A stretch of 5,704 nucleotides of DNA, taken from the NCBI GenBank assembly GCA_009782405.1, contig WRJC01000095.1, forward strand, positions 1 to 5,704, given 5' to 3'. Shown piece after piece: positions 1 to 5,704 of the stretch (position 1 is the stretch's first letter; every line of letters begins with the position of its first letter). The notes below the pieces were generated by a model. The model did not search any database. It worked only from the letters and a program-made list of their open reading frames with translations, and was not told the DNA's origin. This DNA comes from Oscillospiraceae bacterium (GTDB lineage Bacteria > Bacillota_A > Clostridia > Oscillospirales > WRJC01). A program made the position numbers and the translations under genes.

Positions 1-1
1 A

Positions 2-229
2 ATGCAAATCATCCAAGCTAAGCCCTTGCAAAATACAATAAACCCAGTATCGCAAAAAGGAAAAATGGATTTTTTTGGCGTAAAAATAGGAATTCATGTA
101 AGACATAAAACCTTTGGTGACGGAGTTATACGAAAATTTGATAACAGTTCAATTGTCGTATCTTTTGGTTCGGCTGAAAAAAAATTTCCGTTTCCGCAAG
201 CATTTGAAGATGGTTTTTTGATCCAATGA
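2..229 (+). CDS. Small Tudor/SH3-like beta-barrel protein, function unknown (start uncertain, may extend left of window)
   Basis: The frame is open from the left window edge to a TGA at 227-229. The recognisable part begins near residue 25 of the 75-codon reading: G30-x2-V33-x-H35-x2-F38-G39-x-G41, then a short beta-strand pattern (I51 to F55), then K61-F62-P63-F64-P65-x-A67-F68 and a final G71-F72-L73. I know this H-x2-FG-x-G plus F-P-x-AF pattern from short Tudor/SH3-like domains found in clostridial proteins, either alone or at the end of larger ones; its role is not established. Two starts are possible: ATG at 2, or ATG at 65, which gives 54 residues and has AAAAAGG (54-60) four bases upstream. 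The second would encode almost exactly the domain. The frame is also open at the edge, so this could be the C-terminus of a longer protein. Codons are AT-rich, unlike the downstream CODH genes. No terminator is visible after it. Confidence 0.55.
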   Translation: MQIIQAKPLQNTINPVSQKGKMDFFGVKIGIHVRHKTFGDGVIRKFDNSSIVVSFGSAEKKFPFPQAFEDGFLIQ

Positions 230-305
230 AGTACAACGTCGTGAATTTAAAAATTTGCTGCTGTATGCAAAATGAAATTATTTTACCCCGTAACCGCAAA
301 GAGGG

Positions 306-335
306 TTGAAAAGTAGTTGCGTTCTGTGATATAAT
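306..335 (+). promoter_or_regulatory. Strong sigma-A (sigma-70) type promoter
   Basis: The -35 box TTGAAA (306-311) and a perfect -10 box TATAAT (330-335) are separated by 18 bases. An extended -10 TG lies at 327-328, one base before the -10. Transcription would start near 342 and read rightward into the 57-codon gene and then cooS, with no terminator-like structure between them. The initial transcribed region before the first gene would be about 100 nt. The match is by eye only; a strong match can occur by chance in AT-rich DNA, but box quality and placement in an intergenic gap support it. Confidence 0.6.
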
Positions 336-348
336 GGAAAAAGCCAAA

Positions 349-388
349 ATTTGAATAAAAAAACTTTTGTTTGATTTTTAATTCAAAT
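349..388. repeat. AT-rich inverted repeat in the leader between promoter and the first downstream gene
   Basis: ATTTGAAT (349-356) is exactly complementary to ATTCAAAT (381-388). Inside it, A357-A361 can pair with T375-T379, leaving A380 as a bulge and a loop of 13 bases (362-374). In RNA this gives about 13 pairs, nearly all A-U, so it would be weak. It is not followed by a T-run, so it is not an intrinsic terminator on the plus strand. As DNA it could be an operator for a dimeric regulator just downstream of the promoter start site. Both readings are inference. Confidence 0.35.
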
Positions 389-444
389 CTCTGAAAACGG
401 ATTGCGAAATATCGAGCTGTGTAATGGATTTTGAGTGAATAAAG

Positions 445-618
445 ATGTATGAAGAAAAAAGTTATTTTTGCCCGATGGAAGAAAGAGAAATGTGGGATGC
501 TGAATGTTATGACGTTCAAATGGTTTATTGTGAATTTATGGACGGAAAAATATTGGATTTTGTCTTGGATAAAAAAAAGCGGAAAGTTTCTGCGCCGCCT
601 GTCCGTTTAATCAATTGA
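445..618 (+). CDS. 57-residue cysteine-containing small protein, function unknown
   Basis: ATG at 445 is the first start after an in-frame TGA at 436-438, and the frame ends with TGA at 616-618. A weak Shine-Dalgarno-like GAGTGA (433-438) sits six bases upstream. The protein has Cys9-Pro10-Met11, then Cys21-Tyr-Asp-Val-Gln-Met, Cys29, and a basic stretch KKKRK (43-47). The CP(M/x)...C(Y/F)D-x-(Q/S)M arrangement resembles, from memory, a family of short uncharacterised clostridial proteins with paired cysteines. The C-terminal Cys-x2-Cys pair I expect in that family is absent here. No signal peptide or membrane segment is seen. It lies downstream of the 306-335 promoter and 63 bases before cooS, so it is probably co-transcribed with the CODH/ACS genes. 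A metal-binding or accessory role is possible but unproven. Confidence 0.5.
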   Translation: MYEEKSYFCPMEEREMWDAECYDVQMVYCEFMDGKILDFVLDKKKRKVSAPPVRLIN

Positions 619-665
619 ACCGATCGGCAAAAATGTCAATCAAAAATAAAAAAATATATAGACGC

Positions 666-670
666 GAGGT
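666..670 (+). promoter_or_regulatory. Ribosome binding site of cooS
   Basis: GAGGT at 666-670 precedes the cooS ATG at 682 by 11 bases, a rather long gap. A competing ATG at 674 sits only three bases after it and opens a 9-codon frame (MKIWILISH) that ends at 703 inside cooS, so start selection here is not entirely clean. The in-frame TAA at 670-672 rules out a longer CooS. The choice of 682 rests on this stop and on the conserved N-terminal length. Confidence 0.5.
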
Positions 671-681
671 AAAATGAAAAT

Positions 682-2613
682 ATGGATTTTGATATCGCAC
701 TAAACAAAGTCAGCGACAATGCATCGGCGAAAATGCTCGTCAAGGCCGGCCAGGACTGCGTGGAGACCTGCTTTGACCGGTATGAGACCCAAAAGACGCA
801 ATGCGGGTTCGGCAAAAGCGGCGTATGCTGCAAAATCTGCCATATGGGCCCGTGCCGCATCACCCCGAAATCCCCGAGGGGCATATGCGGCGCCACAGCA
901 GACACGATAGCCGCCCGCAACTTTTTGAGGGAGGTGGCCGGGGGCACCTCCGCGCATTCGGACCACGGGAGGCATCTCGTGCTGAAGCTAAAAGCGGTCG
1001 CCAAGGGCGAAGCGCCGGGATATGACATCAAAGACGAAAAGGCGCTCCGGTATGCGGCGAAATTATACGGGGTGGAGCACGAGGAGAGGGACAAATACGC
1101 CGTGGCTCTGGATTTGGCCGATCTGTTCCTAAACGAGTTTTCGGAGCAGGAGGGATTTTTAAAGACGCTTTCACTCGCTCCGCAAAAACGCCAGGGCGTA
1201 TGGAACGCAAGAGGCGTGAACCCCAACGGCATCGACAGGACGGTGGTCGAGGCGATGCACAGGACCACCATGGGGGTGGACCACGACTATAGAAACATAT
1301 TAAAACACGCCGTCAGAACCGCGCTCGCCGACGGCTGGGGCGGGGCGAGAGTGGCCTCGATCGTCTCGGACATACTGTTCGGCTCGCCAAAGCCCGTAAA
1401 AAGCTCGGCGAACCTCGGCGTGCTCAAAAAAGAGACGGTGAACATAATAATCCACGGCCATGAACCCGCGCTGTCCGAAATATTGAACGTGGCGGTGGGC
1501 GACCCCGAAATCAAAGAATACGCGAAGTCAGCGGGGGCCGAGGGGATAACGCTTGCGGGGCTTTGCTGCACCGCAAACGAAATATTGATGCGCCACGGGG
1601 TTCCGGTGGCGGGCAATTTTTTGCAACAGGAGCTCGCGATCGTGACCGGGGCGGTGGAGATGATGGTGATCGACGTGCAGTGCTGCATGCCGGGGCTGCC
1701 CGACGTGGCGAAAAATTACCACACCGAAATAATATCGACTGCCGACATAGCCAAGACAATAGGTGCCGACCATTTCAAGATAAACGGAAACGACCCGCTG
1801 AAATCCGCGAAAGATCTCGCAAAACGCGCGATCGACAACTTCAAGAACAGGCAAGAGGAAAAAATCAATATCCCGTCGGACAAAGAGCCGCTGGTCGCGG
1901 GATTCAGCGTCATGGCGATCAAGCATATGCTCGGCGGCAAATACAGGGCCTCGTTTAGGCCGTTAAACGACGCTATCATCCAAAACAGGATATTGGGCGT
2001 GGTCGGTATCGTGGGCTGCAACAACACGAAATACAAAACCGACGGCTATACCAACATATTGGCCGCGGAGCTGATCAAGCGCAATGTGCTGCTGTTGGAG
2101 ACTGGCTGCTCGGCGATAGGCTCGGCCAAAGCCGGCATGCTGAAACCCGAAACCGCGCTCGAGATCGCGGGCGAGGGGCTAAAAGAAGTGTGCGAGGCGG
2201 TGGGCATACCGCCGATACTGCATCTCGGCAGCTGCGTGGACAACAGCAGGATTTTGGAAGCTGCCACGGAGGTCGTGCTCGAAGGGGGGCTCGGCGACGA
2301 TCTGTCCATGCTCCCGGCGGTCGGCGTGGCCCCCGAATGGATGAGCGAAAAGGCGATTGCAATCGGGAGCTATTTCATCGCCTCGGGGATAAACGTGGTG
2401 CTCGGCAACCCGCTTTATGTGTCCGGGAAGGTGCACGAATACCTGCATGAGGGCGCCAGGGAGGATTTCGGCGCGTGTTTCCATCTGATCGAAGACCCGA
2501 TGCAGGCGGCTGACGCGATATGCGAAATGCTGATGCAAAAAAGGGAAGCCCTCGGCATAAACAAAAAAGCGGAGCGCAAACTCATGGACATGAAAGACAG
2601 GAGGGAGCTGTAA
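682..2613 (+). CDS. cooS: Anaerobic Ni-Fe carbon monoxide dehydrogenase, catalytic subunit
   Basis: This enzyme interconverts CO and CO2 with two electrons at a Ni-Fe-S C-cluster. As the ACS-associated form (AcsA) it supplies CO to acetyl-CoA synthase in the cytoplasm. The 643 residues match the usual length of about 630-640. All cluster ligands expected from the Carboxydothermus CODH-II structure are visible. D-cluster cysteines are 41 and 49. B-cluster cysteines are 50, 53, 58 and 69 (CCKIC...GPC...GICG). C-cluster ligands are His260 (HGH), Cys295 or Cys296 (GLCC), Cys334 (or Cys335, VQCC), Cys446 (GCNN), Cys476 (TGC) and Cys518 (GSCVDNSR). The histidine channel H92-x2-H95-x2-H98 and the catalytic-type lysine K557 (EKAIAIG) are also present, so it should be active. 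Extra cysteines 26 and 30 precede the D-cluster. It is followed one base later by acsB, an operon arrangement typical of CODH/ACS. Isoleucine codons are split between ATA and ATC, with ATT nearly absent. Confidence 0.97.
   Translation: MDFDIALNKVSDNASAKMLVKAGQDCVETCFDRYETQKTQCGFGKSGVCCKICHMGPCRITPKSPRGICGATADTIAARNFLREVAGGTSAHSDHGRHLVLKLKAVAKGEAPGYDIKDEKALRYAAKLYGVEHEERDKYAVALDLADLFLNEFSEQEGFLKTLSLAPQKRQGVWNARGVNPNGIDRTVVEAMHRTTMGVDHDYRNILKHAVRTALADGWGGARVASIVSDILFGSPKPVKSSANLGVLKKETVNIIIHGHEPALSEILNVAVGDPEIKEYAKSAGAEGITLAGLCCTANEILMRHGVPVAGNFLQQELAIVTGAVEMMVIDVQCCMPGLPDVAKNYHTEIISTADIAKTIGADHFKINGNDPLKSAKDLAKRAIDNFKNRQEEKINIPSDKEPLVAGFSVMAIKHMLGGKYRASFRPLNDAIIQNRILGVVGIVGCNNTKYKTDGYTNILAAELIKRNVLLLETGCSAIGSAKAGMLKPETALEIAGEGLKEVCEAVGIPPILHLGSCVDNSRILEAATEVVLEGGLGDDLSMLPAVGVAPEWMSEKAIAIGSYFIASGINVVLGNPLYVSGKVHEYLHEGAREDFGACFHLIEDPMQAADAICEMLMQKREALGINKKAERKLMDMKDRREL
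2599..2605 (+). promoter_or_regulatory. Strong Shine-Dalgarno of the acsB fusion gene
   Basis: AGGAGGG (2599-2605) lies inside the last codons of cooS, nine bases before ATG 2615. The cooS stop (2611-2613) and the next start are separated by a single base, so the two genes are probably translationally coupled and made in a balanced ratio, as expected for partners of one complex. Confidence 0.85.
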
Positions 2614-2614
2614 T

Positions 2615-5600
2615 ATGTCAAAATTAATTTGCTCGAGCGCGATCGACGGCGCGATCGAATGGGTCCTCAAAGCCGAAAAAATGCTCGGGGAGGCGACCGG
2701 GCAAAAAGGCCCGGATTTCCCCGTCGCCTTTCCCGACACCAACTACTATCTGCCGGTCATATACAGTTTCACAGGCAAAAAAATGCAGACTTTGGCGGAT
2801 CTGAAAGATATTTTAAACGAGGCGAAGGAGCTGTTGCCATCGCGCCCGGCAAAAGAGGTTTGGCTGCCGTATCTCGGCGACACATTGGATGCGGGGATTG
2901 CGGCGCTGTTTGCCTGCGAGGTGATCGAGGCCTGCAAATATATAATCGGGCCAAATCCGGTGGATGGCATTTGGCTCGGAGCGGCAAACGACGTGATCAT
3001 GCGCGAACGGGGCATCGAATTCGTCGACGGGACGGCGCCCGGCTTCGCCGCGATCACCGGGGCGGCGCCCGACAACCAGACAGCGGTGAAAATCGCAAAG
3101 GAGCTGCAGCAAAAGAACCTGTATGTGTTCATGGGCGGCTCGACCGGCGGCAAGCAGTTCGCCGAACAGCTGGCCGAAGAGGGGATCCAGCTCGGCTGGG
3201 AGACAAGGCTTGTGCCGTTCGGCTCGGATGTCTCGGCTTTGATTTATGCGCTCGGGTTCGCGAACCGGGCGGCGCTGTCGTTTGGCGGGGTCAAGCCCGG
3301 AGATTTCGAGGCGAACTTGAAATACAACAAAAACAGAATATTCGCGTTCGTGATCGCTTTGGGCGAGGTCACCCCGGACAAATACGCGGCGGCGGCGGGC
3401 GCGATAAACTACGGTTTCCCGGTCATCGCCGACACCGACATACCGCAGATACTGCCCACCGGGGTCTGCACATATGAGCACGTGGTCTCAAATGTGCCAT
3501 ATGATTCCATAGTGGAAAAAGCGCTCGAAGTCAGGGGCTGCAAGATAAAAGTGGTGGACGTGCCGATCCCCACCGCATACGGGCCCGCCTTCGAGGGCGA
3601 GCGCATCAGAAAAGAGGACACGCACGTCGAATTCGGCGGAAACAAGACTTTGGCCTTTGAATTTGTCACAAGCGTCGATGTCGATGCGATCAACGACGGC
3701 GAAATCGAAATAATCGGGCCGGACATAGACGAGGTCGAGCCGGGCGGAAAACTGCCGCTGGGCATATGGGTCGAAGTCGCGGGGCGCAAGATGCAGCCGG
3801 ATTTCGAGCCGATACTCGAGCGCCAGGTGCACCATTTGGTCAACGGCGGCGAGGGCATATGGCATATGGGCCAGCGCGACATAGTCTGGACGAGGGTGTC
3901 GAAAGCGGGCTTTGCAAAAGGGCTCAGGCTTTCGCATTACGGCGAGATCCTGCACGCCAAATTTTTGGCCGACTACCCGGCCATCGTGGACAAGGTGAAA
4001 GTCACGCTTGTCACCGACGAAAAAGAAGTGGAAAAACGGCTTGCGGTGGCCAGAAAGGTTTATGACGAGAGAAACCGCAGGCTTGAAGCCATGACCGACG
4101 AATCGGTGGACACCTTCTATTCGTGCCTGCTCTGCCAGTCGTTCGCCCCAAACCACGTTTGCGTGATCACCCCCGAACGGCTCGGGCTGTGCGGCGCGTA
4201 CAACTGGCTCGACGGCAAAGCTGCCTATGAAATCGACGAAACCGGCGCCAACCAGCCCTTAAAAAAAGGCGAATGCCTCGATCCGGTCAAGGGCATATGG
4301 CAGGGCGTGAACGAATATGTGTACGCAAACAGCCACAAAAACATAGAGAGCTTCACGGCGTATTCGATCATGGACCGCCCGATGACGAGCTGCGGCTGCT
4401 TTGAAGTGATATGCGCCTATCTGCCCGAGTGCAACGGGATCATGGCGGTCAACCGCGAATACCTCGGCGAAACCCCGATAGGCATGAGTTTTTCGACTTT
4501 GGCAGGAAGCGTGGGCGGAGGAAACCAGACCCCGGGCTTCATCGGCTGCGGAAAGGTGTTCTTGACCTCGCGCAAGTTTTTGTCGGCTGAGGGCGGATAC
4601 GGAAGAATTGTCTGGATGCCCAAGGAACTCAAGGATCTGCTAAAGCCCGACATGGAAAAACGCTTCGCAGAGCAGGGGCTTGAAGGCTTCTTCGACAAGA
4701 TCGCCGATGAGACAATCGCGAAAACGGCCGAGGAAGTAAAGGCATACATGGAAAAGACCGCGCACCCGGCGCTGAAAATGAAAGACATGGCCGAATATGC
4801 GCAGGGCGAAGAAACAGCTGCCGCCGCCGCAACCCCCGCCGCTGAGGCGGCACCCCCTTCGTCAACGAAGGGGGCTGAGCAAACCCCCGTCAGCGACGCT
4901 GTCGCTGCCACCCCCTTTCAAAAGGGGGCTGACGAAAGCGCTGTCGATGTCGTGGCCCTGACCGAAAAAATCACCGCCGAAGTCAAGGCGAACATGACAA
5001 GGGAAGTTGTCATGGATATAATCAAGGCGCTCGGCGAAAAATTTTTGGCGAAAAGCGATGTGGAATTTTATCAGGAAATAACAGCGGCAAAACCGGAAGA
5101 ATCCGAAAAAGCCGCCAAAGCTCCCACAATCACGGCGGCAGAGCGGATATCGGAGATAAAATCGTTTAAGCTGCCGGTTGAAACATCCGAGAACTCGGTT
5201 TTGAGCGTGAAACTCGGAAGCAATCTGACCGTCGGCGGGGCGGACTGCATGCCGTTCCATTTGTGGGAGGGCACGATGCCCAACCGACCGGTGGTCGCGA
5301 TGGAAGTTTTCGATACAGTCAGCGAAAAATTACCGCCGTCGCTGCGCGAGGTCTACGGCGATGCCTTAAACGATCCCGCGAAGATGGCCAAGCTGTGCGT
5401 CGGTCAATACGGGGCGGACGCCATAAGCGTCAGGCTGGAGGGCACGCACCCCGAAAAGGGCAACAAATCGGCAAAAGAAGCGGTTGAGCTCGTGGGATCC
5501 GTGTTAAAAGCGGTCGATGTGCCGGTTATTGTCACGGGGCACAGCAACTATGAAAAAAACAACGAAGTGATGAAAGCGGTCGCGCAGGAATATGAGGGCA

Positions 5601-5704
5601 AAAACCTGCTGTTCAACTGGGTGGAGCAGGACAACTACAAGACGATCGCGGGCGCTGCGATGGCATACGGCCACACGTTGGTGGCCCAGGCGCCAATCGA
5701 CGTG
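2615..5704 (+). CDS. acsB-cdhD: Acetyl-CoA synthase (AcsB) fused to corrinoid iron-sulfur protein small subunit (CdhD/AcsD), 3' end outside window
   Basis: One uninterrupted frame of 1030 codons runs to the window edge. Residues 1-725 align end to end, from memory, with Moorella AcsB (729 residues): an N-terminal CODH-contacting region (VAFPDTNYYLPVI), a middle domain (GPAFEGERIRK, GRKMQPDFEPILERQ), and the A-cluster domain ending in HPALKM (717-722). The A-cluster cubane cysteines are C504, C507, C516 and C526 (CLLC...HVC...GLC). The distal Ni site is C593-G-C595, and F510 matches the conserved Phe near the active site. It makes acetyl-CoA from CO, a methyl group and CoA. Residues 726-779 are an Ala/Pro-rich linker and 780-826 look helical. 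After a second short linker, residues from about 843 match CdhD/AcsD: VGGADCMPFHLWEG, MPNRPVVAMEVFD, LNDPAKMAKLC, QYGAD, DNYKTI, AMAYGH. This is about 188 residues of a family of roughly 300. No stop or strong ribosome site separates the parts, so a true fusion is the best reading. The AcsB call is near certain, the CdhD call strong. Confidence 0.93.
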   Translation, partial: MSKLICSSAIDGAIEWVLKAEKMLGEATGQKGPDFPVAFPDTNYYLPVIYSFTGKKMQTLADLKDILNEAKELLPSRPAKEVWLPYLGDTLDAGIAALFACEVIEACKYIIGPNPVDGIWLGAANDVIMRERGIEFVDGTAPGFAAITGAAPDNQTAVKIAKELQQKNLYVFMGGSTGGKQFAEQLAEEGIQLGWETRLVPFGSDVSALIYALGFANRAALSFGGVKPGDFEANLKYNKNRIFAFVIALGEVTPDKYAAAAGAINYGFPVIADTDIPQILPTGVCTYEHVVSNVPYDSIVEKALEVRGCKIKVVDVPIPTAYGPAFEGERIRKEDTHVEFGGNKTLAFEFVTSVDVDAINDGEIEIIGPDIDEVEPGGKLPLGIWVEVAGRKMQPDFEPILERQVHHLVNGGEGIWHMGQRDIVWTRVSKAGFAKGLRLSHYGEILHAKFLADYPAIVDKVKVTLVTDEKEVEKRLAVARKVYDERNRRLEAMTDESVDTFYSCLLCQSFAPNHVCVITPERLGLCGAYNWLDGKAAYEIDETGANQPLKKGECLDPVKGIWQGVNEYVYANSHKNIESFTAYSIMDRPMTSCGCFEVICAYLPECNGIMAVNREYLGETPIGMSFSTLAGSVGGGNQTPGFIGCGKVFLTSRKFLSAEGGYGRIVWMPKELKDLLKPDMEKRFAEQGLEGFFDKIADETIAKTAEEVKAYMEKTAHPALKMKDMAEYAQGEETAAAAATPAAEAAPPSSTKGAEQTPVSDAVAATPFQKGADESAVDVVALTEKITAEVKANMTREVVMDIIKALGEKFLAKSDVEFYQEITAAKPEESEKAAKAPTITAAERISEIKSFKLPVETSENSVLSVKLGSNLTVGGADCMPFHLWEGTMPNRPVVAMEVFDTVSEKLPPSLREVYGDALNDPAKMAKLCVGQYGADAISVRLEGTHPEKGNKSAKEAVELVGSVLKAVDVPVIVTGHSNYEKNNEVMKAVAQEYEGKNLLFNWVEQDNYKTIAGAAMAYGHTLVAQAPIDV
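4838..4946. repeat. GC-rich palindromic repeat element (hairpin array) inside the coding linker
   Basis: Four perfect hairpins lie nearly end to end. A small one has GCCGC (4838-4842) pairing with GCGGC (4847-4851). Hairpin A has CCCCCTTCG (4853-4861) pairing with CGAAGGGGG (4866-4874), loop TCAA. Hairpin B has CAGCGAC (4891-4897) pairing with GTCGCTG (4901-4907), loop GCT. Hairpin C has CCCCCTT (4911-4917) pairing with AAGGGGG (4922-4928), loop again TCAA. Stems A and C are each followed by GCTGA. CGCTGTCG occurs twice (4897-4904 and 4939-4946), and an extra CCCCC at 4884-4888 offers alternative pairing. The pattern resembles dispersed palindromic elements I have seen between genes in Clostridia (C5 and G5 arms with a GTCAG-type core), though I cannot check for other copies. 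It is read in frame as a Pro/Ala/Ser/Thr-rich peptide (residues about 742-777) with the repeated word KGA(E/D), and contains no stop in this frame. Confidence 0.75.
4999..5014 (+). promoter_or_regulatory. Possible internal ribosome binding site and start for a separate CdhD-type product
   Basis: AAGGGA (4999-5004) precedes the in-frame ATG at 5012 by seven bases, just downstream of the hairpin array and upstream of the CdhD barrel. Initiation here would yield a free protein starting MDIIKALGEK and carrying the whole CdhD domain. It may be a relic of the start of a once separate gene, or a working second start. The match is modest, and purine-rich sextets are common in this gene, so this is tentative. 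Confidence 0.2.

Follow-up and report, generated by a model that had tools for sequence, protein, structure and literature searches.

The window analyzed here is a 5,704-nucleotide stretch from an Oscillospiraceae bacterium (assembly GCA_009782405.1, contig WRJC01000095.1, positions 1 to 5,704), and it carries genes of the carbon monoxide dehydrogenase/acetyl-CoA synthase (CODH/ACS) system. We confirmed that positions 2615 to 5704 code for one polypeptide composed of a complete acetyl-CoA synthase (AcsB), a linker of about 127 residues, and a truncated AcsD, the small subunit of the corrinoid iron-sulfur protein (CFeSP). The gene is called acsBD below. The features of the window are as follows.

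682 to 2613, plus strand: cooS/acsA, the Ni-CO dehydrogenase catalytic subunit, 643 amino acids (aa); TIGR01702 at 628 bits (cut-off, 478) and Prismane PF03063.
2599 to 2604, plus strand: Shine-Dalgarno (SD)-like AGGAGG of the fusion gene, a 6-base match.
2615 to 5704, plus strand: acsB-acsD fusion gene, 1030 codons, ending at the contig end; full relatives reach about 1,150 aa.
2615 to 4792, plus strand: AcsB part, residues 1 to 726, assigned by Pfam, NCBIfam, and cysteines; the model of a relative, P0003, matches solved ACS chains.
4793 to 5173, plus strand: linker, residues 727 to 853, 127 aa, with boundaries placed approximately by aligning P0003; one helix flanked by low-complexity sequence.
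4850 to 4936, plus strand: translated copy of a dispersed palindromic repeat within the linker; similar places occur in genomes G001 and G1003.
4943 to 5047, plus strand: conserved, probably amphipathic helix segment of the linker, residues 777 to 811; motif in 59 of 75 linkers.
5174 to 5704, plus strand: beginning of the AcsD/CdhD domain, the small CFeSP subunit; PF03599 at 80.8 bits.

The fusion open reading frame (ORF) opens one base past the cooS stop codon and is free of stops for 1030 codons, up to the contig end. Its product contains the Pfam domains CODH_A_N (residues 21 to 110), CdhC (318 to 472), ACS_CODH_B_C (483 to 725), and CdhD (870 to 1029), all above their curated cut-offs, and scores 1055.1 bits (cut-off, 800) and 1043 bits (cut-off, 809) on the AcsB NCBIfam models NF040764 and NF007078. 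Cysteines 504, 507, 516, 526, 593, and 595, which we take from the Moorella enzyme to be the A-cluster ligands, are present and are invariant in a 74-row alignment of relatives. The cut-off that PF03599 exceeds is 24.8 bits. None of the NCBIfam AcsD models scores above its cut-off for the window product (NF003376, 178 versus 280), because the AcsD domain is truncated at the contig end; judged by relatives, it is short by about 115 to 125 residues. The full relatives P0003 and P0105 (368.3 and 374.8 bits) pass the cut-off for NF003376 only and stay below it on the remaining AcsD models, including NF040759 (430). The original prediction, made from the letters of the window, was of a genuine AcsB-AcsD fusion. 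Across 4793 to 5173 there are 0 stops in the fusion frame and 5 and 4 in the other two forward frames, and this single open frame, the domain scores, and the 74 of 80 loci described next all bear the fusion out. Within the window's linker, the strongest in-frame internal start is preceded by an SD-like match of only 4 bases.

Our wider statements (operon, copy number, clade, and acsE) rest on relatives of the window's genome. Locus counts refer to the best 80 of 594 matching stretches in named genomes. AcsB and AcsD matches share one ORF at 74 of these 80, several of which are cut within AcsD by a contig end and one of which (L063) breaks frame inside AcsD. Among the other six, L066, L070, L073, and L080 reach a contig end, L076 has a run of N in the linker region, and L079 has a frame change in the linker. 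Scoring of the 7994 best candidates from a protein search with the junction region as query, which favors fused matches, yielded 1522 proteins. All 120 proteins listed, the window's own included, have the AcsB C-terminal and CdhD domains, and 109 have all four Pfam domains, so that the two-domain architecture that the original prediction proposed to look for is indeed found in databases. Where such proteins are named at all, they are mostly named after the AcsB part; both parts are named for P0024, P0106, and P0119.

By record titles, which for metagenome-assembled genomes (MAGs) may carry binning errors, the 74 fused loci include members of 16 NCBI phyla: Spirochaetota (12 loci), Lentisphaerota (11), Bacillota (8), Synergistota (5), Planctomycetota, Verrucomicrobiota, and Thermodesulfobacteriota (4 each), Fibrobacterota and Myxococcota (3 each), Actinomycetota and Acidobacteriota (2 each), and Bdellovibrionota, Latescibacterota, Pseudomonadota, Ignavibacteriota, and Hydrogenedentota (1 each). 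The remaining 11 of the 74 loci have no phylum assigned, among them KSB1, Aminicenantes, and SAR324. The nearest relatives are Oscillospiraceae MAGs, L066 (92% identity over residues 1 to 658) and L001 (79%), whose isolate codes presumably denote termite guts. The L066 sequence stops at its contig end; an ORF on a second contig of that genome, L168, matches P0003 residues 658 to 1143 at 74%, as would be expected of one gene split in two by assembly.

We also sampled 994 genomes from five groups around fused members, partly overlapping the genomes of the locus search. AcsB and AcsD lie in one frame in at least 20 of them (1/291, at least 1/148, 11/247, 6/240, and 1/68, each group center counted), and G911, G991, and G016 are further clade members broken at runs of N or a frame change. 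Unfused AcsB, full or partial, occurs in 14 genomes of the first group, 15 of the third, 5 of the fourth, and 3 of the fifth; the second holds many.

No description of an AcsB-AcsD fusion was found in searches of the open-access literature. The fusion is unmentioned in the passages seen of PMC3082573, PMC10213532, PMC5736913, PMC6895022, PMC7857596, PMC7325909, PMC13067680, PMC6344411, PMC11338639, PMC12827605, PMC12449052, PMC11474084, and PMC4500148. The claim of novelty thus stands as far as this literature goes, but the fusion is not peculiar to one organism, being a clade across many phyla with proteins already in databases.

In quick trees containing a few long rows and rooted at midpoints, the fused rows group together for both parts. 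For AcsB, all 77 rows labeled fused and the 6 exceptions noted above form one clade (83 of 126 rows; Shimodaira-Hasegawa-like approximate likelihood ratio test [SH-aLRT], 100), and for AcsD, 78 fused rows and 4 labeled split (L063, L076, L079, and L146) do so (82 of 100 rows; SH-aLRT, 100). Identity to P0003 is 67 to 92% for the fused AcsB rows and 60% for the closest unfused row lying outside the clade. From these sequences, the joined form appears to be one lineage that many anaerobic bacteria, unrelated to each other, have in common, and lateral transfer of the fused gene is suggested because hosts are scattered inside the fused clade. Unfused rows within the clade are explained by contig ends, runs of N, or single frame changes. 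Reversal to separate genes was considered for four of them and rejected: L076 and L146 (G911) have runs of N, L079 a frame change in the linker, and L063 a frame change in AcsD. No clean fission of acsBD was found among the tree rows examined.

As to origin, acsC is the next recognized gene past acsB in 9 of 9 unfused loci fetched, on which ground a simple loss of the stop codon between neighboring acsB and acsD was rejected; acsD probably moved before or as the fusion arose. At these nine loci, acsD is found ahead of cooS in five, immediately ahead of acsB in one, and past acsV and cooC in three. A three-part AcsB-AcsD-AcsC fusion, reported as a frame of about 1,600 aa in G002, G003, G007, and G008, was also rejected, as the locus DNA shows a stop between acsBD and acsC. 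The original prediction had asked whether a standalone acsD exists elsewhere in the genome; a PF03599 search that recovered AcsC and the fused AcsD found no second full-length AcsD in any of the genomes of 15 fused relatives. Extra PF03599 matches in fused genomes are a weak one in a 1164-aa MetH-sized frame of G010 and pieces of AcsC at contig ends in G012. Away from the operon, a 469-aa frame of G011 holds an unexplained 94-position CdhD match of 47.5 bits (contig C14, 251603 to 251878).

The 75 linkers compared (74 loci and the window) are about 71 to 258 aa long (median, 125), their ends being approximate and some taking in a little of AcsD. None contains a stop, and they are rich in Ala, Glu, Pro, Ser, and Val. 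The helix motif, a regular expression composed after inspection of the linkers, occurs in 59, and many of the remaining 16 have a variant recognizable by eye (e.g., L004, L021, L067, and L075). An AlphaFold2 (AF2) model of P0003, made with a 74-row alignment, has both ends folded and most of residues 732 to 817 at a predicted local distance difference test score (pLDDT) below 50, with low-confidence helices at 773 to 779 and 785 to 799. By Foldseek, its first part matches solved ACS chains, those of acetogenic CODH/ACS being 1oao, 1ru3, 6ytt, and 9fzy, and its second part matches 4djd_D (template modeling score [TM], 0.92 by target length), 2h9a_B, and 9fzy_E, 4djd being the CFeSP with its methyltransferase. 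The complete AcsD barrel fold is seen in P0003 only, the window copy ending short. The linker is thus predicted to be a long disordered tether, usually with one short helix, a feature that is new here and agrees with the tether originally proposed between the halves. A generic polymer estimate puts the effective concentration of a carrier so tethered at 0.5 to 3 mM.

A dispersed palindromic repeat has entered the window's linker and is translated in frame there; it is also seen among L168 to L173. Four similar places occur in G001 and two in G1003, where one of the two is the acsBD linker itself. The repeat pattern has 9 matches in G001 and 3 in G1003, and a reversed-pattern control has 0 and 0. 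Other repeat-like stretches were noted by eye in the linkers of some close relatives.

We consider it probable, on the strength of sequence comparison and models, that AcsBD is a bifunctional chain, an acetyl-CoA synthase bearing the CFeSP small subunit on a long flexible tether, on which AcsC docks so that the carrier is kept near the A-cluster. We favor this reading because 74 of 80 loci are fused, the fused rows form single clades, the fused AcsD is the sole copy, the linkers are free of stops, both ends are folded in the P0003 model, an SD-like match of at least 4 precedes acsBD at 65 of 65 loci with a complete start, and acsC comes next. AcsC would pair with the tethered AcsD to give a captive CFeSP, and a linker of about 70 to 260 residues would let the corrinoid swing between the A-cluster, the methyl donor, and the reactivase AcsV, which would reactivate it in place. 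The corrinoid would be held near the A-cluster at roughly millimolar effective concentration, and AcsB:AcsD would be fixed at 1:1. The linker helix would be a secondary contact and not an essential one, because the linkers of L041 and L072 have neither the helix nor its by-eye variant. Several points weigh against this reading. These two linkers are one, and the mutual placement of the two halves is undefined in the AF2 model (predicted TM, 0.54). Eight of the 75 linkers contain an ATG with an SD-like match of at least 5, the database AcsD entries P0173, P0179, P0181, P0184, and P0232, on long contigs, look separate, and tethering need not matter where free partners are abundant.

It is possible but unlikely that the fusion only fixes expression and a 1:1 stoichiometry, with CFeSP docking in the ordinary way and the linker a neutral connector. 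Linker sequence and length do vary widely, the window's linker took up a repeat element, and the helix is absent in L041 and L072; however, the fused state is kept across one clade with no clean reversal among the rows, and AcsC stayed separate though presumably needed in the same ratio. Quite improbable, in our estimation, is that cells produce AcsB and AcsD as two proteins from the fused frame, through internal initiation in the linker or its proteolysis. The predicted disorder of the P0003 linker would allow this, and an in-frame ATG, GTG, or TTG accompanied by an SD-like match of at least 4 occurs in 50 of 75 linkers, a loose criterion applied with no chance control. On the other hand, 30 of 75 linkers have no in-frame ATG, and ATGs with the stronger match are confined to 8 of 75 and lie at varying places. 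The contig of the window does end inside AcsD, as an assembly chimera or frameshift artifact joining two genes might have it, a junction problem that the original prediction had flagged. The chance of this is negligible, and for the architecture it is refuted, as the same joined frame recurs at 74 of 80 loci in many assemblies and all four domains recur in the 109 database proteins, the junction query and its bias toward fused matches notwithstanding.

The operon at fused loci, with gene names assigned by BLAST to genes typed in example loci, commonly reads Smt, U354, CooC, CooC, CooS, AcsBD, AcsC, AcsV. In relatives, acsC is a separate gene, next after acsBD and thus outside the window; an ORF of more than 380 aa lies closely downstream of acsBD in 40 fused loci and is AcsC where tested. 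Upstream genes were counted at the 54 loci with at least 6.5 kb before acsB, many of all 80 having shorter flanks. The methyltransferase gene acsE is found at 0 of these 54 and at 0 of 80 overall, and in 7 of 9 unfused loci fetched (8.7 to 20 kb). In a genome-wide protein search, 14 of the 19 unfused genomes and none of the 27 fused ones had a standalone AcsE match above 125 bits, a comparison in which completeness is not given, the unfused genomes were hand-picked from match lists, the query came from one of them (G812), and the threshold (125 bits, open frame below 350 aa) was chosen after inspection of the list. Fisher's test gives 5e-8, or 6e-7 at 100 bits with G012 positive, for rows that are not independent by descent. 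Below the threshold, the fused genomes G012 and G013 have matches of 111.8 bits (273 aa) and 85 bits (in a 433-aa frame), respectively; other matches in fused genomes sit in frames of at least 499 aa, MetH-like by size, and five fused genomes have none. The same trend is seen in a search with Pfam PF00809 of 12 genomes of each kind, fused and unfused. The absence of acsE from fused loci, and from the 27 fused genomes bar one lower-scoring match, is new here. Absence of acsE is not confined to the fused clade, because unfused G495, G555, G565, and G592 have only MetH-sized frames and G366 a fragment. The folate-branch gene for formate-tetrahydrofolate ligase is carried by two thirds of the fused genomes (18 of 27); among the unfused, it is found in 18 of 19. 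In the passages seen of one study, acsE went undetected in 78% of human-gut Oscillospirales genomes with a putative CODH/ACS, and no fusion is mentioned there (PMC11338639). The fusion had originally been read as a change in docking. The joining of AcsB to AcsD holds, but with acsE missing from the fused loci the change exceeds docking alone.

The MesB-like gene U354 occurs in 52 of the 54 loci (e.g., L004, 1070 to 2131; L026, 3232 to 4296), and Smt, a PF02574 homocysteine S-methyltransferase-like gene, in 29 (L004, 156 to 1040; L014, 1732 to 2625; L026, 2282 to 3175); neither was found in the nine unfused loci (8.7 to 20 kb). No Pfam match below 0.001 was obtained for the copies of U354 scanned, and PRK00957 scores are weak (29.6 and 39.8 bits versus a cut-off of 258). 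Its AF2 model (50 rows; pLDDT, 95) is a barrel whose structural matches, at TM values of about 0.5 to 0.6, are MetE, UROD, and a Methanosarcina mazei methyltransferase. Residues H228, C230, D249, and C324 are invariant. Compared by published positions, their spacing is near that of the zinc residues of MesB (214, 216, 235, and 311 in the passages seen of Price et al. 2021, PMC7857596), differing by one at the final residue; the fold is MetE-like, and the aspartate D249 stands in place of the E of MetE. Because most MesB proteins are predicted, in the same passages, to take methyl groups from CFeSP, we regard a methionine-making branch as the likelier role of U354 and a substitute for AcsE as the less likely one. 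At L001, the closest long relative, a PF00724 flavin oxidoreductase gene (1499 to 2815) lies between U354 and cooC, and at L026 two DUF3786 genes (15308 to 16689) lie downstream of AcsV.

Compared with the acetogenic CODH/ACS, in which AcsB, AcsC, AcsD, and AcsE are separate, the fused lineage has the same AcsB Pfam domains, cysteines, and AcsD fold, and CooS, AcsC, AcsV, and CooC-like genes likewise stand in its operons; it differs in having AcsB and AcsD in one chain and in the distribution of acsE given above. Swinging-arm multienzymes, such as lipoyl-bearing E2 chains, consist of a folded unit, a flexible linker, a short helical element, a flexible linker, and a carrier-binding unit. AcsBD has a like layout without homology, and its carrier cofactor sits in a separate protein, AcsC. 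In the archaeal acetyl-CoA decarbonylase/synthase (ACDS; CdhABCDE), CFeSP stays with ACS in a stable complex, according to the passages seen of PMC11474084, and acsE is described as unique to bacteria in those of PMC7325909. Like ACDS, the fused loci lack acsE and would keep CFeSP with ACS, the archaeal chains being separate and AcsBD covalent. The first of these sources also describes archaeal ACS as lacking the N-terminal domain, which the AcsB of the fusion keeps (PF18537, present in the window product), and as bearing about 75 extra residues at its C terminus, a probably flexible extension with no known function, to which the AcsBD tether is a possible parallel. By analogy with the archaeal system, we suggest tentatively, with the balance against it, that AcsBD marks an AcsE-independent bacterial CODH/ACS, in which the tethered AcsD barrel and AcsC would take methyl from methyl-tetrahydrofolate and pass it to the A-cluster of the same chain, and the MesB-like enzyme would draw methionine from the captive carrier. 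Archaeal corrinoid subunits exchange methyl groups with their own pterin, a point backed here by a reference title only (Grahame 1991, in PMC4500148).

Central to the study of the Wood-Ljungdahl pathway is the question of how methyl passes between CFeSP and the A-cluster, which is buried. A natural fusion in which the carrier subunit is kept next to this site would offer a construct for structures of methyl-transfer states and a tunable tether for kinetics. Also, pathway calls that require a separate acsD, or an acsE, may miss fused bacteria; in the passages seen of two studies, the criteria include acsE or all five subunits.

Elsewhere in the window, no RNA families were detected at the gathering threshold, and in a promoter and terminator scan of positions 1 to 900, signals were no commoner than in shuffles. 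The GC content is about 33% at 1 to 660, upstream of cooS, versus 53 to 61% in windows inside the operon; this low-GC stretch may mark the border of an import or be ordinary intergenic DNA containing small ORFs.

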